NCBI RefSeq assembly: GCF_000001735.4 | Contig: NC_003075.7 | Span: 9,301,001-9,365,000, forward strand | Source of the DNA: Arabidopsis thaliana | Taxonomy: Eukaryota > Streptophyta > Magnoliopsida > Brassicales > Brassicaceae | Direction of reading: 5' to 3' | Length of the DNA stretch: 64,000 nt | In this document: piece after piece, positions 9,861 through 27,754 of the stretch | Numbering within the stretch: position 1 is the first letter of the stretch | Layout of the letters: every line of letters begins with the position of its first letter | Notes under the pieces: model-generated | Databases searched by the model: none | The model's input: the letters and a program-made list of their open reading frames with translations, nothing else | Told to the model about the DNA's origin: nothing | Program-made: the position numbers and the translations under genes

Positions 9861-10066
9861 GTTTTTACTGTTAGGGTCGAACAAAAAAAAAATCCAAATT
9901 GATGTTAGCTGTTCTGATGTCTCTAATTTCGATTAATTCTACCAAAACATTAATAACTTGGACTACATTTTAGTTGAAATTTACCCCTTAAAAACATCCA
10001 AATTGGGTGATACATTGGTGAGAGAGAAACCAAACCTCATTTAAAGTCATAAGTTATAATAATGCA

Positions 10067-10230
10067 GATGAGGACAAATATAGATTAGGATATGGTGTTG
10101 CTGGTAAAGGTGTGAAGCGACTTTGCCTCCTTGGTACCTTGAGAAATGTAATGATGAAGATGATAGTGTTCGTGGTGAGGATGATGATGGTGGATATAGA
10201 GGTTATGAAGCTGAGTGGGAAGAAGAGTTA
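10067..10230 (+). pseudogene. Fragment copied from the LENG1-like gene
   Basis: This 165-bp stretch is about 90 percent identical by eye to coding positions 13197-13370 of the LENG1-like gene: GATGAGGA, TATAGATT(A/G)GGATATGG, GTTGCTGGTAAAGGTGTGAAGCG, CCTTGGTACCTTGAGAAA and GAGGATGATGATGGTGGAT occur in order. It has a small insertion (GACTTTGCCTCC), a deletion in the Lys-rich codons and no start or stop of its own. It ends about 125 bp before the DUF577 start and so may sit in that gene's promoter or 5-prime UTR. Confidence 0.8.
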
Positions 10231-12720: not shown

Positions 12721-13476
12721 ATGGGAGGTCACGGTGGTTTGAATATTCTTCCACAGAAGAGGTGGAACGTTTACAACTTCGACAATCGAGAAAAAGTCCG
12801 AAAGGAGGAAGAAGCTGCCGCTAGAGAAGAGCAGATCAAACGCGAGGAAGCTAGAAAACGAGATGCTGAATCTCGTCTCGAAGTGCTTCGTAACGTCCGT
12901 GGCTTGGCGCCTCTCAAACGAGCGTCTCCGGAGGCAGAGAAGGGTAAGGATGAAGCGGTGGTGGCGGCGGCTGTTGTTAAATCGACTGCTGTTGTTGTGG
13001 AGAGTGTTGAATCGGAGGAGCCTAAGACGGGTCATATTAATCTGTTCGAAGGGATTAGGATTTTTGATCCGATTGAGATCAAGAAGAATGATAAGCCTGC
13101 GGATGAGGAAGATCAGAGAAGGAAGAAGATGAGGAAAGAAGCGGCTGCAACGGCGAGAGCCTCTGCGAAAGATGCTGCTGCGAGAGCTGGTGATCCTGAT
13201 GAGGAGAAGTATAGATTGGGATATGGAGTTGCTGGTAAAGGTGTGAAGCGTCCTTGGTACCTTGAGAAACGTAACGATGAAAATGATAGTGTTCGAGGTG
13301 AGGATGATGATGGTGGATGTGGTGGTTATGAAGCTAAGAAGAAGAAGATGAGTGGGAAGAAGAGCTTAAAGGAGTTGAGGGAAGAAAGGTTGAAGAGGGA
13401 GAGGGTTGAGAAGGAAAGAGAGAGAGCCCTTTTCATGAAACAGAGCCAGAGAGCCGGTGGTTTTTCCCGGAGGTGA
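12721..13476 (+). CDS. LENG1-like protein with CIR_N domain
   Basis: Single-exon gene for 251 residues. The N-terminus MGGHGGLNILPQKRWNVYN followed by NREKVRKEEE is the CIR_N domain found in LENG1 and CIR proteins, which associate with the spliceosome or with corepressors. The rest is charged and coiled-coil-like, with a short conserved block HINLFEGIRIFDP (about 106-118), the motif YRLGYGVAGKGVKRPWYLE (about 163-181), and a Lys/Arg/Glu-rich tail that can act as a nuclear localisation signal. A nuclear RNA-processing role is inferred from the family only. A fragment of this gene has been copied to 10067-10230. Matches my memory of At4g16535. Confidence 0.85.
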   Translation: MGGHGGLNILPQKRWNVYNFDNREKVRKEEEAAAREEQIKREEARKRDAESRLEVLRNVRGLAPLKRASPEAEKGKDEAVVAAAVVKSTAVVVESVESEEPKTGHINLFEGIRIFDPIEIKKNDKPADEEDQRRKKMRKEAAATARASAKDAAARAGDPDEEKYRLGYGVAGKGVKRPWYLEKRNDENDSVRGEDDDGGCGGYEAKKKKMSGKKSLKELREERLKRERVEKERERALFMKQSQRAGGFSRR

Positions 13477-18727: not shown

Positions 18728-19268
18728 GATGATTCGACTGAGATTTCTGGTTAGCTACTTTGGGATTAGTTTTTTTCTGCTTTCTCTCTGGGTTTTGGCA
18801 TTTAGGGTTTTTGGGATCTTTATGGGAGGGAAGGCAACAGGACGGAGTTGTCAGGTGAAGACAAGACAATACTATGGGGACACGTGTCTCTTTTGCATTT
18901 GTGATTTGCACCAGTATTAGTTTGACACGCGTTGTCCTCTTTTTGTGAAACAACTGTCGTACGTTGCTTTGCATTTTATTGTATTGGTTGACAAAAGTAA
19001 TGTTAAATTCATTTTGCAATTCAATAGTGACCTTTGAAACTGATAAACAATTTAGAGACTCATAAATGGCAGTGGGTTATAGACCAAATAAGTTGTGTCG
19101 TTGAAACACATCCAAATATGTTTTGTCATTGAGACATATCCAACCAAAGAACTAAAACATGAAACGACATAATAATCCTTAAGACAACGACACTATCCCG
19201 AAAAAAGGGTCCACTCTAGAAAAACAGATTTTTAACAGACCCAAACACAAAGTTTCACCACGAGATCA

Positions 19269-19299
19269 TCAAACAGGAAGGATGACCAAACGAAGCACG
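19269..19299 (-). pseudogene. C-terminal stub of split HSP20-like unit C
   Basis: Only the last nine codons and stop (VLRLVILPV, compare GVIRLIIPPV of unit B) survive, followed by about 250 bp of 3-prime flank (19010-19268) that aligns with the flanks of units A and B, including an AAAGGGTCCAC block. At 19300 the gene is cut by an LTR-like sequence. The 5-prime exons of a gene lacking its last exon lie in the same orientation at 22443-23254, so both are probably halves of one gene. Confidence 0.7.
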
Positions 19300-19551
19300 T
19301 GTTGAAAGTTAAACTTGATTTTGAATCAAGTTTAATTATTGGATCAATTATCCAATAATTAATTATGGCCAAATCCAAGTTTTAGAGTTTTCTCTAGAAA
19401 TATCATCATCTTCCACCTCCTTAAACATAAAAATCTAGATACTCTAATAGAATAATCTAGATAATTTGAATAATGTAATCTAGATCTTATGTAAGACCTC
19501 TCTAGACTTAGGATTAAAATATTTTAGATATTTTGTAGTTTGGAGGCTATA
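19300..19551 (+). mobile_element. Truncated LTR of a retrotransposon
   Basis: Starts TGTTGAAAG, as plant Copia LTRs do. Two perfect adjacent hairpins follow: AAACTTGATT-TTG-AATCAAGTTT and AATTATTGGAT-CAATT-ATCCAATAATT. The segment ends near GGCTATAAA, an LTR promoter TATA box, so it looks like a U3 region cut at or near the transcription start. Beyond it the sequence is HSP20-like exon 2. Family not identified; no internal domain or second LTR is in the window. Confidence 0.6.
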
Positions 19552-20064
19552 AAACACCATCTTCCAACAAAGGTATGAATGTTGTTACTGATTTCCACAG
19601 CAGTCACAGAGTAGTCCCCACGGAGGTTCCATACTTGCGGTTAGAAGCATCGTGTTTGCTGCTCTTAGCTGCGTCTCCGGTCACAGTAACAGCTTTTTTG
19701 GATGGTTCGAGAAGGGTAAGTGGGTAACCACAGTCTCTTTCTTGACTCCAGGCAAATCAAGCCTCACGAATAGATCATGGGTATCTTCCAGATACTTGAA
19801 CTCAGCAAACCCTTTTGGTCCGTTCGCTTGGTACGGATTGTTCATAGCGTAAAAACCATCTACACATATACACCAAAAAACCAGAAATGTATGCATATCA
19901 CGTGGAGAAAAATCTAAGATTTTTAAGAAATGGTGAAGTAATTGTAAACTTTGGGTTTAAAGATCGTTACTATGAGCGTGAGGCGCCGGAGCTATGGGCG
20001 TGATAGGCGTGATCATTCGGGGGCTGGTAGGGATGTTGATTCTGACTCGGCGGCGGATAGGCAT
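19552..20064 (-). pseudogene. HSP20-like fragment D-prime (5-prime part of unit D, duplicated)
   Basis: Contains exon 1 (19971-20064 from the upstream ATG) and most of exon 2 (about 19553-19859) of unit D, then ends abruptly at the LTR. It carries the same 8-bp frameshifting insertion as unit D (TTACCC-AC-TTACCC) and in addition several single extra C residues, for example near 19569, 19601 and 19619. It lacks the linker and second domain. Dead copy. Confidence 0.85.
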
Positions 20065-22352
20065 GATGATGATTCGGCGGCCGAAGATTTCGGTTTGGGT
20101 TTTTTTCCTTTTGCTTTTTGAGATCTCTCAATCTCTCTCTGTCTCTCTCTGGTTCTAGGGTTTTAAGATGTTTAATGAAGCGAAGTTCAATAAAGTAAAT
20201 GAAGGTGAGAGTATGGCGGTGTCAGGTGAGAAACGACAAACAGTCTCTAGACTGACACGTGTTCTATTTTCATTTGCTGACATTTTCTAGTGCATCATTT
20301 TTTATTTTATTTTCATTTTAACCATGCATTAGACGAAGATTAAAAACATACGAGTGCGACAAAAAAAAAACATACGAGTGAATATTTTCATACACGTCTT
20401 ATACGTACATATGTATTAAAGTCCATTTAATTAGTGTTCTTGAAATATTCGGGAATCCAAAAGAAAAAGACAAACATATGCATGTCCCAATATTGTTTTA
20501 AACATGATGATTAATTCCAAAAGCATGATCTTAATTAAGAGCCGATTCATTAATTAGTAGGGAGGGATAGTGAGACGGATGACACCATGTTTGGCGATTA
20601 TCTTGATCCGACGCCAGCATAGCCTCTAGGGACAATGGCGACCTTGCATACGTAACTACGCCCACTTGAGTCGTGCATAGTCGCAGGAGCTCGTCCCATG
20701 ATGGTGACGACACCATTGCCGTCCACTGCCACAATGAAGCCGTCGCTAGGGACACCAGGCATGTCAATTCGCAGATACAGACCACCGTTTGAGAGCTGCT
20801 TTGTCTCGTAAGCACTCGTGGATCCCTCCAACACTGACGGGTGTGGTCGTATGGTCGGACCAGTGAACGCCGGATCTGTCCAACGTTCAAACACAAAATA
20901 TAAATCAGTAAGCATCTCTTAAGTCTTTTGTTTGCGCATAGTAATTGATACATATAACTACAATTACTATATTTGGAAATTATGTCACAATGGAGAGATT
21001 AAGTTCATACCAAAAGGGTCAGTGCCACGACAACCTACGATGATAAAACAATTAATGAAATCAATCAAAACAATTTATGAAGTTGTCTGTCTTTAGACGA
21101 ATTAATAACAAGATGATACCTTCTGGATTAAGTCCACGAAGATGAGCTGCAAGATTCAAGAACAGAAAAAAAAGAGGATTTTTATTTTTAAAACAAGTCA
21201 AAGAAAAAAAGAAATGGTAAAAAGGTATAGTCAAAGGTTGATGTTATACATACCAAGAGGATGGCCACCTGCGACTGCAACAATTGGAATCAACAACACA
21301 AACCCATGAAAAATGTCAGATACGTTTACTATACTAAAACAACGAAGACTAGTTTCTAAAAGAAGCTCAACTGATAAGTCTGATCTATTAACCAGAAAAT
21401 AATAGAAGAAGAAAGAAACATAAAAAATCATATACCTTCTGGGTTATAACCACGAATGATGTTAGCTGCCAAAAGTCATATACAAAGCACATAGTTTTAT
21501 TAATAAACAAACGATAGATCATAATGACAAATAAGAACAATTAATCAAAAGATTACACAGATAGAGACATTACGAGAAGCATCAGTAGGCATTCTTGCAC
21601 CTCCGACTGAAACAATACAAGACAAAAATGTCAGATTTTTTTTAGTATCCTTTAAAATGTTAGAAGTAAATCTTTACCAAAAATAAGACAAAAAAACAAA
21701 ACATTTTGAAGATTAGTGATCTTACAGGAACAGAAAATAGGAACACGAAGATTGATCTTCTGCTTGGAGAGGATAAGTCTAACGACACCATCACCAACAA
21801 AACACTGAATGTTACTGATTTCACAGCAGTCACAGATTAGACCCGTGGCGGTTCCATACTTACGGTGAGAAGAATCGTGTTTGCTCTCTTTGGGTGCTTC
21901 TCCGGTCACAATGACAGCTTTCTTCGATGGTTCGAGAAGGATTATCACACTCTCTTTCTGGATTCCTGGGAAATCAAGCCTCACGAACAGATCATGGGTC
22001 TCTTCCAGATACTTGAACTCAGTAAAACCTTTTGGTCCGTTCACTTGGTACGGATTGTTTGTAGCGTAATACCCATCTACACACACACATACACACAAAA
22101 ACAGAAATGTATATGTATCAGTCGACAAAATAAAAGATTTTTATTGAAATGGTGAAGTAATAATCTTTGGGTTTAAAGATCAGTACCGCGAGGGTGAGGT
22201 ACCGGAGCGATGTGCGGGATAGACATGTTTCGGCGGCTGGAGATTTCAGAGGCTCTTTAGGGTTATGGTTTTGCTTTTTGAGATCTCTCTCTCTCTGGTT
22301 CTTTAGGGTTTTTGGAGGTTTTGTGAGGCGAAGAAGCTCATAAAGCAAATGA
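19553..22352. repeat. Segmental duplication, copy 1 (2.8 kb)
   Basis: Nearly identical to 24959-27754 at a shift of 5,402 bp. It carries fragment D-prime and the whole of unit E1. Differences I found are confined to the first 650 bp: five single extra C residues, one A/T change, and GTTCAAT versus GCTTTCAT. The remaining 2.1 kb looks identical. The left end joins the LTR fragment and the right end joins intron 4 of unit C. Confidence 0.92.
20598..22226 (-). CDS. HSP20-like protein, cluster unit E1 (C-terminally truncated)
   Basis: Eight exons: 22187-22226, 21726-22076, 21574-21606, 21436-21465, 21254-21274, 21120-21146, 21011-21034 and 20598-20875. All internal junctions are phase 1; 267 residues. 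Exon 1 is MSIPHIAPVPHPR. Domain 1: GYYATNNPYQVNGPKGF, LFVRLDFPGI, CDCCEIS, GDGVVRLIL. Five linker microexons of 33, 30, 21, 27 and 24 nt encode units such as PNIIRGYNPE, VAGGHPL, AHLRGLNPE and GCRGTDPF. Domain 2: AYETKQLSNGGLYLRIDMPG, MHDSSGRSY. Relative to unit D, a one-base deletion in the codons after VPRGY shifts the frame, so the protein ends AGVGSR and loses the GVIRLTIP strand; those codons remain readable in the other frame. Same coding sequence as unit E2. Confidence 0.75.
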
Positions 22353-22442
22353 CTCTTCTCCTATTCCTATATACAATGAAATTCTCTAAATAAAAATTCT
22401 AAAGTTTCCATGTATAAGCTTAAAGGGGAATAATGTGAATAC

Positions 22443-23254
22443 CATTAGGATCCGTGGCATGGGGAAAACCATCAGTAGCCGTGCCAACGCGATCTATAAC
22501 CAGAAAATCAGAGTGCAAAACAATTCTAATTAATTAAGTAAGTAAGCTATATTTCAAAAGTTTATGGATGAAATTAAAACAGAACTAATAATACCTTCTC
22601 CGTCTGAGCCACCAAGAAAAGCTGTAGAAACAAAAATAAAAATAATGGTTCATATCAGATAATTATCCTATTACAAATTTCTATTTTTCGAATAAATAAA
22701 TAAAAAGGGTTAGATAGAAAATATACAGATGCAAGTACAAGAAGGACGTCGTGTAGAGGCGTGGCTCGTGGTGAGAACGAGTCTTAGAACACCATCGGCC
22801 ATGTGAGAAGTAAAGCCGGAGAAGAACTCACAGCATTTGCAAGGGATCTTGGTGTTGATACCGCCGACACTGATCTTGGGTCTTAGCTTGGTACCGTCGT
22901 AGTTACGGTGCGACGAGTCATACTTGTGTTCCTTGGGAGCGTCGGCTAAGATATTCACTGTATTATTAGGTTGGTCTAGTAAAACAGTGACGCCGTCTCT
23001 TGGAACTCCGGGGAGATCGAAGCGGATGTAGCTTTCATTATCCAAAGTCTTGGCCTCTAAGAAACCCTTTGGACCATTCACAAGGAATGGATTGTTTATT
23101 GCGTAGAAACCCTCTGCTCAAATCAACAACAAAGAAAAAAATGACAACTTTATCGGAAATAAAAGAAAGAGGTTACGATTTGATGAGAACGAAAAAAGAG
23201 AAATAGTTAAAACATACCTGGAGATGGAGGAGCAAGAGTAACCGGGGAGACCAT
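22443..23254 (-). pseudogene. 5-prime part of split HSP20-like unit C
   Basis: Exons 23218-23254, 22727-23113, 22595-22621 and 22443-22493 have good splice sites and encode 167 residues. They comprise MVSPVTLAPPSP, domain 1 (GFYAINNPFLVNGPKGF, YIRFDLPGVPRDGV, CKCCEFFSGF, ADGVLRLVL, with an insertion of about 14 residues before the CxCC motif) and two linker microexons (SFLGGSDGE, then RVGTATDGFPHATDPN). Intron 4 begins with GT at 22442 but is cut near 22352 by the start of the duplicated segment, so the second domain is missing. Read-through of the donor would add a few residues and stop. The missing tail is probably the stub at 19269-19299. Confidence 0.8.
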
Positions 23255-23745
23255 GATTAGGCGGCTGAAGATTTCGTTAGGGTTTTTTTTTAATGCTTTT
23301 TGAGATCTCTCTCTCTGTGTCTTTAGGGTTCTTGGAGGTTTTATGAAGCGAAAGCTGTAAAGCAAATGAATGAGAGAGTGAGGAAGAGAGTATTATGGTG
23401 AAATACGACAAAAACTCTATACTGACACGTGTTCTATTTTTTGGAGCAATCTAGAAGCACACGTATTAGTTGAGCTGTATCGCGCCACTCTAGACTTTGA
23501 GTCAATCTCTCTTGAAATCAATTACAGTACTAATAGTGAAGTAGCAAATTCGTTTTACCAGGACTATTAACCATATGCATTAGATGGTGACAAAATTAAG
23601 CATAATTAACATGCATAAACATACGAGTGAAACGTCTTAATTAGGTACATATTAAAGTTGTTGAAACATTCGGAAATCCAAAAGAAAAGACAAACAGATA
23701 GATATGCTCCATGCATAAGCATGATCTTAAGATGCGATTTATAAA

Positions 23746-25466
23746 TTAGTTGGAAGGGATAGTGAGACGGATGACACCATGCTTGGGGACCAATTTGATC
23801 CGACCCCCGTCATAGCCTCTAGGGACATTGGCGACCTTGGCTACGTAAGTACGCCCACTCGTGTCGTGCATGGTCACAGGAGCTCGTCCCATGATGGTGA
23901 CGACACCATCGCCGTCCACTGCCACCATGAACTTCTCGCTAGGGACACCAGGCATGTCAACACGCATATACAGACCACCGTTTGAGAGCTGCTTTGTCTC
24001 GTAAGGCATCATGGGTCCCTCCAACACTGACGGGTGTGGTAGTACGACCGGACCAGTGAACGCTGGATCTGTCCAACGTGAAGCAACAAAACATATACCA
24101 TTAAGCCTCCCTTAATTAAGTCTTTTGTTTCAGTATAGAGGAATCTATTTATAGAAATCATGCATGTGATATAAACATACTATAATGAAACTAATATATT
24201 GGGAAATTATGTTACAGTGGAGAGATTAAGTTCATACCACCAGGGTCAGTGCAACGGCGACCTATGATGAAACAAATAATGAAGTAGATTAGTTAATTAA
24301 TCAACCACAAAGTTTTATGGAGTGGTAAAAATATCAAATCAAATATATATATACCTTTTGGGATAAGTCCACGAAAATGAGCTAAGAGATTCACTACAAA
24401 ATTAAAAAGAAGAAGATTTTAGAAAACATGTCAAAGGAAAAAGAAAAAAAAATGGTAAAAACTAAAAAGGATTAGTCAAAAGTTGATGTTACATACCATA
24501 AGGAGTGCCATCTGCAACTGCACCAATTGGAATCAAACACAATAAACCCATGAAAAAATGTCAGATATATATATACACGTTACTAAATAAAACAACCAAG
24601 ACTAATTTCTAAAAGAATCTCAAATGATAAGAAATATCAAATATCTCTGATCTATTAACCGGAAAATAATAGAAGATATAAAACACATCATTAATATAAA
24701 CAAACCATAGATAATGACGTATAAGAAGTTAAGAACAAATAATCAAAAGATTAAATGGATAGAGACTTAACCAGGAGCATCACCAGTAGGGATTGTTGCA
24801 CCTCCAACTGAAAACAATACAACAACAAAAATGTCTTGAATAAATTATTATCTTTCAAAATGTCAGAAGTAATTTTACCCAAAAAAAAAAATGAATTTAC
24901 AAGAACAGAAATTAGGAGCATGAGGATAGATCTTCTTCTTGGAGAGGATGAGTCTAACAACACCATCTTCAACAAAGGTATGAATGTTGTTACTGATTTC
25001 ACAGCAGTCACAGAGTAGTCCCACGGAGGTTCCATACTTGCGGTTAGAAGCATCGTGTTTGCTGCTCTTAGCTGCGTCTCCGGTCACAGTAACAGCTTTT
25101 TTGGATGGTTCGAGAAGGGTAAGTGGGTAACCACAGTCTCTTTCTTGACTCCAGGCAAATCAAGCCTCACGAATAGATCATGGGTATCTTCCAGATACTT
25201 GAACTCAGCAAACCCTTTTGGTCCGTTCGCTTGGTACGGATTGTTCATAGCGTAAAAACCATCTACACATATACACCAAAAAACCAGAAATGTATGCATA
25301 TCAGTGGAGAAAAATCTAAGATTTTTAAGAAATGGTGAAGTAATTGTAAACTTTGGGTTTAAAGATCGTTACTATGAGCGTGAGGCGCCGGAGCTATGGG
25401 CGTGATAGGCGTGATCATTCGGGGGCTGGTAGGGATGTTGATTCTGACTCGGCGGCGGATAGGCAT
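23746..25466 (-). pseudogene. HSP20-like unit D, disrupted by an 8-bp insertion in exon 2
   Basis: Exons 25373-25466 (or from the inner ATG at 25418), 24901-25262, 24772-24807, 24497-24517, 24355-24381, 24238-24261 and 23746-24068. Splice sites and phase-1 junctions are intact, with four linker microexons (36, 21, 27, 24 nt; the 30-nt microexon of unit E is absent). Exon 2 contains TTACCC-AC-TTACCC where paralogues have one copy, an 8-bp gain that shifts the frame after KKETVV and stops it 20 codons later. Removing the insertion conceptually restores VTLLEPSKKAV and the rest of domain 1 (CDCCEIS, EDGVVRLIL). Domain 2 is complete (MPYETKQLSNGGLYMRVDMPG to HGVIRLTIPSN), so decay is recent. Confidence 0.8.
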
Positions 25467-25999
25467 GATGATGATTCGGCGGCCGAAGATTTCGGTTTGG
25501 GTTTTTTTCTTTTGCTTTTTGAGATCTCTCAATCTCTCTCTGTCTCTCTCTGGTTCTAGGGTTTTTAGATGTTTAATGAAGCGAAGCTTTCATAAAGTAA
25601 ATGAAGGTGAGAGTATGGCGGTGTCAGGTGAGAAACGACAAACAGTCTCTAGACTGACACGTGTTCTATTTTCATTTGCTGACATTTTCTAGTGCATCAT
25701 TTTTTATTTTATTTTCATTTTAACCATGCATTAGACGAAGATTAAAAACATACGAGTGCGACAAAAAAAAAACATACGAGTGAATATTTTCATACACGTC
25801 TTATACGTACATATGTATTAAAGTCCATTTAATTAGTGTTCTTGAAATATTCGGGAATCCAAAAGAAAAAGACAAACATATGCATGTCCCAATATTGTTT
25901 TAAACATGATGATTAATTCCAAAAGCATGATCTTAATTAAGAGCCGATTCATTAATTAGTAGGGAGGGATAGTGAGACGGATGACACCATGTTTGGCGA

Positions 26000-27628
26000 T
26001 TATCTTGATCCGACGCCAGCATAGCCTCTAGGGACAATGGCGACCTTGCATACGTAACTACGCCCACTTGAGTCGTGCATAGTCGCAGGAGCTCGTCCCA
26101 TGATGGTGACGACACCATTGCCGTCCACTGCCACAATGAAGCCGTCGCTAGGGACACCAGGCATGTCAATTCGCAGATACAGACCACCGTTTGAGAGCTG
26201 CTTTGTCTCGTAAGCACTCGTGGATCCCTCCAACACTGACGGGTGTGGTCGTATGGTCGGACCAGTGAACGCCGGATCTGTCCAACGTTCAAACACAAAA
26301 TATAAATCAGTAAGCATCTCTTAAGTCTTTTGTTTGCGCATAGTAATTGATACATATAACTACAATTACTATATTTGGAAATTATGTCACAATGGAGAGA
26401 TTAAGTTCATACCAAAAGGGTCAGTGCCACGACAACCTACGATGATAAAACAATTAATGAAATCAATCAAAACAATTTATGAAGTTGTCTGTCTTTAGAC
26501 GAATTAATAACAAGATGATACCTTCTGGATTAAGTCCACGAAGATGAGCTGCAAGATTCAAGAACAGAAAAAAAAGAGGATTTTTATTTTTAAAACAAGT
26601 CAAAGAAAAAAAGAAATGGTAAAAAGGTATAGTCAAAGGTTGATGTTATACATACCAAGAGGATGGCCACCTGCGACTGCAACAATTGGAATCAACAACA
26701 CAAACCCATGAAAAATGTCAGATACGTTTACTATACTAAAACAACGAAGACTAGTTTCTAAAAGAAGCTCAACTGATAAGTCTGATCTATTAACCAGAAA
26801 ATAATAGAAGAAGAAAGAAACATAAAAAATCATATACCTTCTGGGTTATAACCACGAATGATGTTAGCTGCCAAAAGTCATATACAAAGCACATAGTTTT
26901 ATTAATAAACAAACGATAGATCATAATGACAAATAAGAACAATTAATCAAAAGATTACACAGATAGAGACATTACGAGAAGCATCAGTAGGCATTCTTGC
27001 ACCTCCGACTGAAACAATACAAGACAAAAATGTCAGATTTTTTTTAGTATCCTTTAAAATGTTAGAAGTAAATCTTTACCAAAAATAAGACAAAAAAACA
27101 AAACATTTTGAAGATTAGTGATCTTACAGGAACAGAAAATAGGAACACGAAGATTGATCTTCTGCTTGGAGAGGATAAGTCTAACGACACCATCACCAAC
27201 AAAACACTGAATGTTACTGATTTCACAGCAGTCACAGATTAGACCCGTGGCGGTTCCATACTTACGGTGAGAAGAATCGTGTTTGCTCTCTTTGGGTGCT
27301 TCTCCGGTCACAATGACAGCTTTCTTCGATGGTTCGAGAAGGATTATCACACTCTCTTTCTGGATTCCTGGGAAATCAAGCCTCACGAACAGATCATGGG
27401 TCTCTTCCAGATACTTGAACTCAGTAAAACCTTTTGGTCCGTTCACTTGGTACGGATTGTTTGTAGCGTAATACCCATCTACACACACACATACACACAA
27501 AAACAGAAATGTATATGTATCAGTCGACAAAATAAAAGATTTTTATTGAAATGGTGAAGTAATAATCTTTGGGTTTAAAGATCAGTACCGCGAGGGTGAG
27601 GTACCGGAGCGATGTGCGGGATAGACAT
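26000..27628 (-). CDS. HSP20-like protein, cluster unit E2 (C-terminally truncated)
   Basis: Eight exons: 27589-27628, 27128-27478, 26976-27008, 26838-26867, 26656-26676, 26522-26548, 26413-26436 and 26000-26277, encoding 267 residues. The coding sequence appears identical to unit E1, including the C-terminal frameshift, so that lesion predates the duplication. Two alpha-crystallin-like domains flank a linker of five phase 1-1 microexons. Domain 1 has CDCCEIS. Domain 2 stops shortly after VPRGY and lacks the conserved GVIRLTIP strand, which may impair folding. The upstream leader has AAACCCTA and a CT-rich block shared with the other units. Confidence 0.78.
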
Positions 27629-27658
27629 GTTTCGGCGGCTGGAGATTTCAGAGGCTCT

Positions 27659-27723
27659 TTAGGGTTATGGTTTTGCTTTTTGAGATCTCTCTCTCTCTGG
27701 TTCTTTAGGGTTTTTGGAGGTTT
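27659..27723 (-). promoter_or_regulatory. Conserved leader block of the HSP20-like genes
   Basis: On the minus strand: AACCTCCAAAAACCCTAAAG, then AACCAGAGAG repeats, GAGATCTCAAAAAGC and AAACC, ending about 30-40 bp before the ATG. Variants occur before unit B (18770-18815), fragment D-prime (20098-20165), E1 (22257-22321), C (23279-23340) and D (25500-25570). It combines an AAACCCTA telobox with a GA-rich tract and is better conserved than the introns, so it may be core promoter or 5-prime UTR control. Confidence 0.55.
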
Positions 27724-27754
27724 TGTGAGGCGAAGAAGCTCATAAAGCAAATGA

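Follow-up and report, generated by a model that had tools for sequence, protein, structure and literature searches.

Plant LTR retrotransposons are partly removed from the genome by illegitimate recombination. For repair in maize genes, fillers of 1-131 bp are described (PMC2686159), and for rice, filler insertions of 10-1000 bp, a range that the design of the study may itself have set (PMC7407515). The microhomology at joins made by polymerase theta in Arabidopsis averages about 3 bp, and classical end joining is associated with an overlap of 0-1 bp (PMC10923293). The locus considered here, which lies in an array of HSP20-like genes of Arabidopsis thaliana, is a clear and well-preserved case of an already known kind of genome scar. 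It shows at base resolution what would be the insertion of a retrotransposon, followed by the loss of the end of the host gene and the duplication of its neighbours within a tandem array.

The array of HSP20-like genes

The window, that is, the whole 64-kb stretch of DNA that was analysed (G000:C4:9301001-9365000), belongs to a genome of 119.66 Mb in seven contigs, which was the scope of the genome-wide searches. The array is found on its minus strand, with the order, from right to left, E, D, the 5' part of C, the segment E' and D', the tail of C, B, and A. Unit E (27628-26000, minus strand) was modelled with eight exons, and unit D, also HSP20-like, occupies about 25.5-23.75 kb on the same strand. 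Unit B (18727-17442, minus strand) has five exons in total and, of the units compared, is the most closely related to C, and four leading exons were modelled for unit A (16153 to about 15023, minus strand). The layout of the four leading exons is common to A, B, and C, and phase 1 holds for every intron modelled in units A, B, C, E, and E'.

In the Pfam scan, unit B scored above the gathering cut-off of PF00011 (HSP20/alpha-crystallin; 25.7 versus 20.8) and unit E slightly under it (18.7), and exons 1-4 of C gave no match. The assignment of C to the HSP20-like family is based on its similarity to B, with which it shares 77 of the 114 aligned residues of exon 2, the corresponding values being 57/114 for A and 50/114 for E. 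The genes of the array are presumably those named At4g16540, At4g16550, and At4g16545/16555/16556/16560. A literature search for At4g16540 returned no papers. At4g16550, an HSP20-like gene presumably of this array, is listed in a table of one paper as altered by stress treatments, which has no bearing on the fusion of C and E' discussed below, and the names At4g16545/16555/16556/16560 led to a paper on flowering in Chenopodium. Elsewhere in the window, 10062-10215 and 13193-13338 are partial duplicates of each other, 85-90% identical and 3.1 kb apart, the second being inside the open frame 12721-13476.

The two pieces of unit C

The 5' part of unit C (23254-22353, minus strand) contains exon 1 (23254-23218), exon 2 (23113-22727), exon 3 (22621-22595), and exon 4 (22493-22443), all on the minus strand, followed by 90 bp of intron 4; the acceptor of this intron and most of exon 5 are absent. 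Across the four exons the frame is open, the donors are GT, the acceptors are AG, and all introns are in phase 1, in a layout that matches the first four exons of B. In unit B, 447 bp separate exon 4 from the sequence equivalent to the tail. Given that C retains 90 bp of this distance, approximately 357 bp of C, as scaled on unit B, would be missing, namely the left part of intron 4 and exon 5 up to the tail.

The tail of unit C is found 3.1 kb downstream in the same orientation (19299-19269, minus strand), where the sequence reads C GTG CTT CGT TTG GTC ATC CTT CCT GTT TGA and encodes the last nine codons (VLRLVILPV) and the stop. When these 31 nucleotides were compared with all positions of the 64-kb window on both strands, the best other matches were with the ends of B (24/31) and A (21/31) at their stop codons, both in register, followed by an unrelated site with 20/31. 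The 3' flank of the tail (19010-19268, minus strand) can be aligned in part with the corresponding flanks of A and B. With 19000-19299 as query, and with base shuffles as a mild control, the flank of A scored 98, against at most 27 in 300 shuffles, and that of B scored 58, against at most 29 in its shuffles. The scores obtained with the flanks of D, E, and E' (19, 20, and 20, respectively) were inside their shuffle range; on this ground, a unit of the D/E type was rejected as the origin of the tail. Because the best matches and the flank alignments both lead to A and B, 19269-19299 is assigned to the end of a unit of the A/B type.

The 5' part of C is itself a unit of the A/B type that lacks an end of this kind, and the two are complementary pieces of one such gene. 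Outside the array, the best candidates scored included no further copy of C or its tail at E<=0.001, which is a weak negative result, and the genome search with 19010-19268 gave no other match, at a sensitivity too low to recover the flanks of A and B. These results bear out the earlier note, which had taken 22443-23254 as the first four exons of a unit without its last exon and 19269-19299 as the last nine codons of a unit. They also support its proposal that one gene, C, was split in two, given that both pieces belong to the A/B subtype, with exon 2 nearest to B and the tail and its flank of the A/B type.

The LTR fragment and its retrotransposon family

The truncated LTR (19300-19553, plus strand) has an exact LTR start, carries an internal deletion of 41 bp, and is cut after CTATAAA, with base 19553 being assignable to the LTR or to the copied segment. 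Apart from the 41 bp, it covers positions 1-295 of a 440-bp LTR, the last two bases (19552-19553) included, and shows 2 or 3 substitutions versus seven other copies. With a 266-bp LTR query, 30 sites in the genome were matched, counting the query itself, and eight pairs of them have starts 4354-4752 bp apart. The three elements examined as LTR pairs all have 440-bp LTRs, TG...CA ends, and 5-bp target duplications. Their paired LTRs are near-identical (440/440, 439/440, and 440/440 positions), which argues for a young family. In one element, the open frame adjoining the 3' LTR (L004:600-1514) contains a partial match to the copia-type reverse transcriptase domain RVT_2 (PF07727; profile positions 185-243 of 244) with an E value of 9.3e-14 and 52 bits versus a cut-off of 31.6. 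The family is judged from its sequence to be of the Ty1/copia type. Among its LTR copies, one on C1 (G000:C1:17201300-17202200) carries an internal stretch of some 350 bp of extra DNA, and one on C5 (G000:C5:4208100-4208800) has an internal expansion of 22 bp.

From TGTTGAAAG at 19300 onward, the window agrees with all seven aligned LTR copies (7/7). Upstream of this point, the flanks of the three 5'-LTR copies are unrelated, the four 3'-LTR copies are preceded by element-internal sequence absent from the window, and the switch from host DNA to element DNA in the window falls exactly at the LTR terminus. This coincidence indicates that the left boundary arose by integration and not by capture during repair and, given that an exact LTR end means integration, the insertion into the last exon of C would have preceded the loss of sequence. 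The 5 bp to the left of the LTR, GCACG (19295-19299, plus strand), are presumed to be the left target-site duplication, since 5-bp duplications flank the three elements examined; the right-hand side has been deleted. The 41-bp stretch missing from the window LTR is carried by all seven aligned copies and by six more (40 or 41 of 41 positions), which rules out the gap as an older subfamily state, and the gap is put down to a deletion between near-repeats. The LTR fragment that the earlier note had placed at 19300-19551 is present, but it starts exactly at the LTR terminus and is not an unrelated filler of the repair. It is to be read as the putative stub of a retrotransposon insertion that preceded the rearrangement.

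The copied segment and its junctions

The segment at 19553-22352 (2.8 kb, minus strand) contains a complete E (E') and, of D, the 5' part (D'), and aligns to 24959-27754 (minus strand) in D and E with 99.6% identity in blastn, which confirms the local copy from 5.4 kb away proposed in the earlier note. The copy is in direct orientation, the donor segment remains in place, and the offset between the two is constant at 5402 bp over 20190-22352. Because D extends beyond 24959 and the similarity of E to other upstream regions extends beyond 27754, whereas the copy stops at both points, D'-E' is the derived copy. The conceptual gene E' (20598-22226, minus strand) has 8 exons, with introns in phase 1, and encodes 267 aa, its protein being the same as that of E. 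Both E (at 26000) and E' (at 20598) share a premature stop approximately 15 codons before the end of D, with one base fewer than in D, as seen for E. Exon 2 of both D (25090-25200) and D' (19687-19797) has an 8-bp frame-shifting insertion versus E, and it looks as if D was already a putative pseudogene when the copy was made.

Copy and source have eight separate differences, namely five insertions of a single C in the copy (19564, 19595, 19616, 19901, and 20107), a T to A change at 20165, a 2-base gap at 20185, and a 1-base insertion at 20189. The changes at 20185 and 20189 may be one compound change, in which case the total is seven. All the differences are inside the first 637 bp (19553-20189 versus 24959-25591), beside the junction, and the other 2163 bp are identical. 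If differences were uniformly distributed, the chance of finding all of them in 637 bp would be 7e-6 for eight and 3e-5 for seven, for a part that was picked with the data in view; when eight differences were simulated, equally tight clustering anywhere was obtained in 29/200,000 cases. The error rates of polymerases are far below 8 differences in 637 bp, which disfavours error-prone repair synthesis as the source of the differences at the junction side. Most likely, the cluster reflects a problem of base calling in the reference, the zone being about the length of one Sanger read, or a later gene conversion between E and E'.

At the junction of the LTR and the copy, after CTATAAA, a single base is shared (A at 19553). 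The seven LTR copies read ctataaatacctcc at the LTR/D' join and continue with TACCTCC after CTATAAA, and the base ahead of the source D differs. The microhomology AACACC that had been suggested for this join does not hold, given that the seven LTR copies and the source D allow 1 bp only. The extent of microhomology is thus 1 bp at the LTR side, and the parental sequence at the C side has been lost. A search for the junction sequences in viral_contigs, where stray plant contigs were sought, gave 0 matches for each of two patterns.

History of the locus

The history that is slightly favoured here over a duplication with a later deletion, and that we hold tentatively, at slightly below even probability, is an insertion into exon 5 of C followed by a single break repair with a 2.8-kb local copy. 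A Ty1/copia-type LTR retrotransposon inserted into the last exon of the HSP20-like unit C, a step shown by the exact LTR end, and a double-strand break would later have occurred at the inserted element. Its repair would have lost everything to the right of the CTATAAA of the LTR, that is, what remained of the element plus some 357 bp of C, and the gap would have been filled by a direct-orientation copy of the D-E segment, the ends of which would have been joined by end joining, with 1 bp of overlap at the LTR side. This overlap is short of the polymerase theta average and inside the range of classical end joining. Both edges of the copy are at one site of the former C, the left one in the element in exon 5 and the right one approximately 357 bp away in intron 4, which is what one repair event predicts. 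By a rough estimate, two unrelated events would meet at that site by chance in 6-7% of cases for an array of 10-12 kb. The single repair event has the fewest steps and accounts for both edges, but a filler of 2.8 kb would be unusually large versus the reported plant fillers. As for the earlier proposal of error-prone break repair or template switching with two unrelated fillers, the 2.8-kb local copy with its donor in place agrees with it, and the LTR piece, as the stub of an earlier insertion, does not.

The same structure could have been reached through a tandem duplication by end joining of 22353-27754 (about 5.4 kb, with the 5' part of C, D, and E), giving the order A-B-C-D-E-C(5')-D-E. 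The retrotransposon would have inserted separately into the C on the left of the two, and a deletion running from within its LTR as far as exon 2 of the D next to it would have taken away the 5' part of this C and the 3' part of this D. Such a history is a real possibility, with a probability somewhat below that of the single repair. The direct orientation of the copy with its constant offset and the position of E', which abuts the 5' part of C as a tandem-duplication junction would, both fit such a series, in which every step is ordinary by itself. According to a review, tandem duplications between 3 kb and 1 Mb in size are common in cancer genomes and often have microhomology at their ends, which suggests alternative end joining (PMC7407515). 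Nonetheless, one more event is required, and the edge of the duplication in intron 4 and the insertion site in exon 5 of C would have to lie, by chance, no more than about 360 bp apart.

It is improbable that two separate former units, each now missing its other half, gave rise to the tail at 19269 and to the 5' part at 22443. The split gene is pieced together from its parts, and an uninterrupted C is not among the sequences compared, but both pieces are of the A/B type and fit each other, and no further fragment of this type was seen in the array. Least probable of all is that the structure stems in part from a mistake in the reference assembly or in a sequenced clone, which would account for the base differences, confined as they are, with the five inserted C's, to the length of a Sanger read next to an identical remainder, but not for the architecture, and would not put the LTR terminus exactly at the end of the C tail.

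Consequences for C and E'

C is left without its second domain. With intron 4 retained, the conceptual frame of C reaches a stop seven codons past exon 4 and encodes 174 residues. Because the modelled introns are all in phase 1, exons 1-4 of C could also be spliced in frame onto E', and a conceptual splice from exon 4 of C to exon 2 of E' gives 421 residues. At about 160-190 bp ahead of the start, the motif ACACGTGTC can be aligned in B, C, D, D', and E, the starts of D and D' being approximate, and its core ACGTG was not found in the 330 bp upstream of E' nor in those upstream of A. From this comparison, E' has apparently lost the upstream ACACGTGTC box seen in its relatives and now stands behind the exons of C. 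The absence of the core suggests that E' is either poor in promoter or driven from C. A new gene, in which the promoter and exons 1-4 of C are spliced to exons 2-8 of E' and E' is expressed under the control of C, is a rather unlikely outcome; its predicted protein of 421 residues would have one C-type and two E-type crystallin-like regions. More generally, where all introns are in phase 1, breakage within an array can yield in-frame domain fusions at once.

Comparison with known systems

The LTR at the C locus resembles the remnants left by illegitimate recombination, given that it is truncated, retains one intact terminus, and has lost the rest of the element. It is unlike them in that host exon sequence was also lost and that a duplicated gene segment follows the stub. 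The patch-mediated double-strand-break insertions of rice (Vaughn and Bennetzen 2014, cited in PMC7407515) are likewise direct copies of nearby DNA. Those insertions are of 10-1000 bp and include tandem duplications (PMC7407515), whereas the copy at the C locus is larger, is not adjacent to its source, and came with a concurrent loss. The chimeric p2/p1 gene of maize, in the P1-wr array, also belongs to a tandem array of plant genes in which break repair removed a 3' part including the last exon, and there, likewise, the filler was copied locally and a chimeric gene was made, as described in PMC2686159. In that maize case the filler is 50 bp and comes from two sites (PMC2686159), whereas at the Arabidopsis C locus it is 2.8 kb from one site, with an LTR stub at one side.
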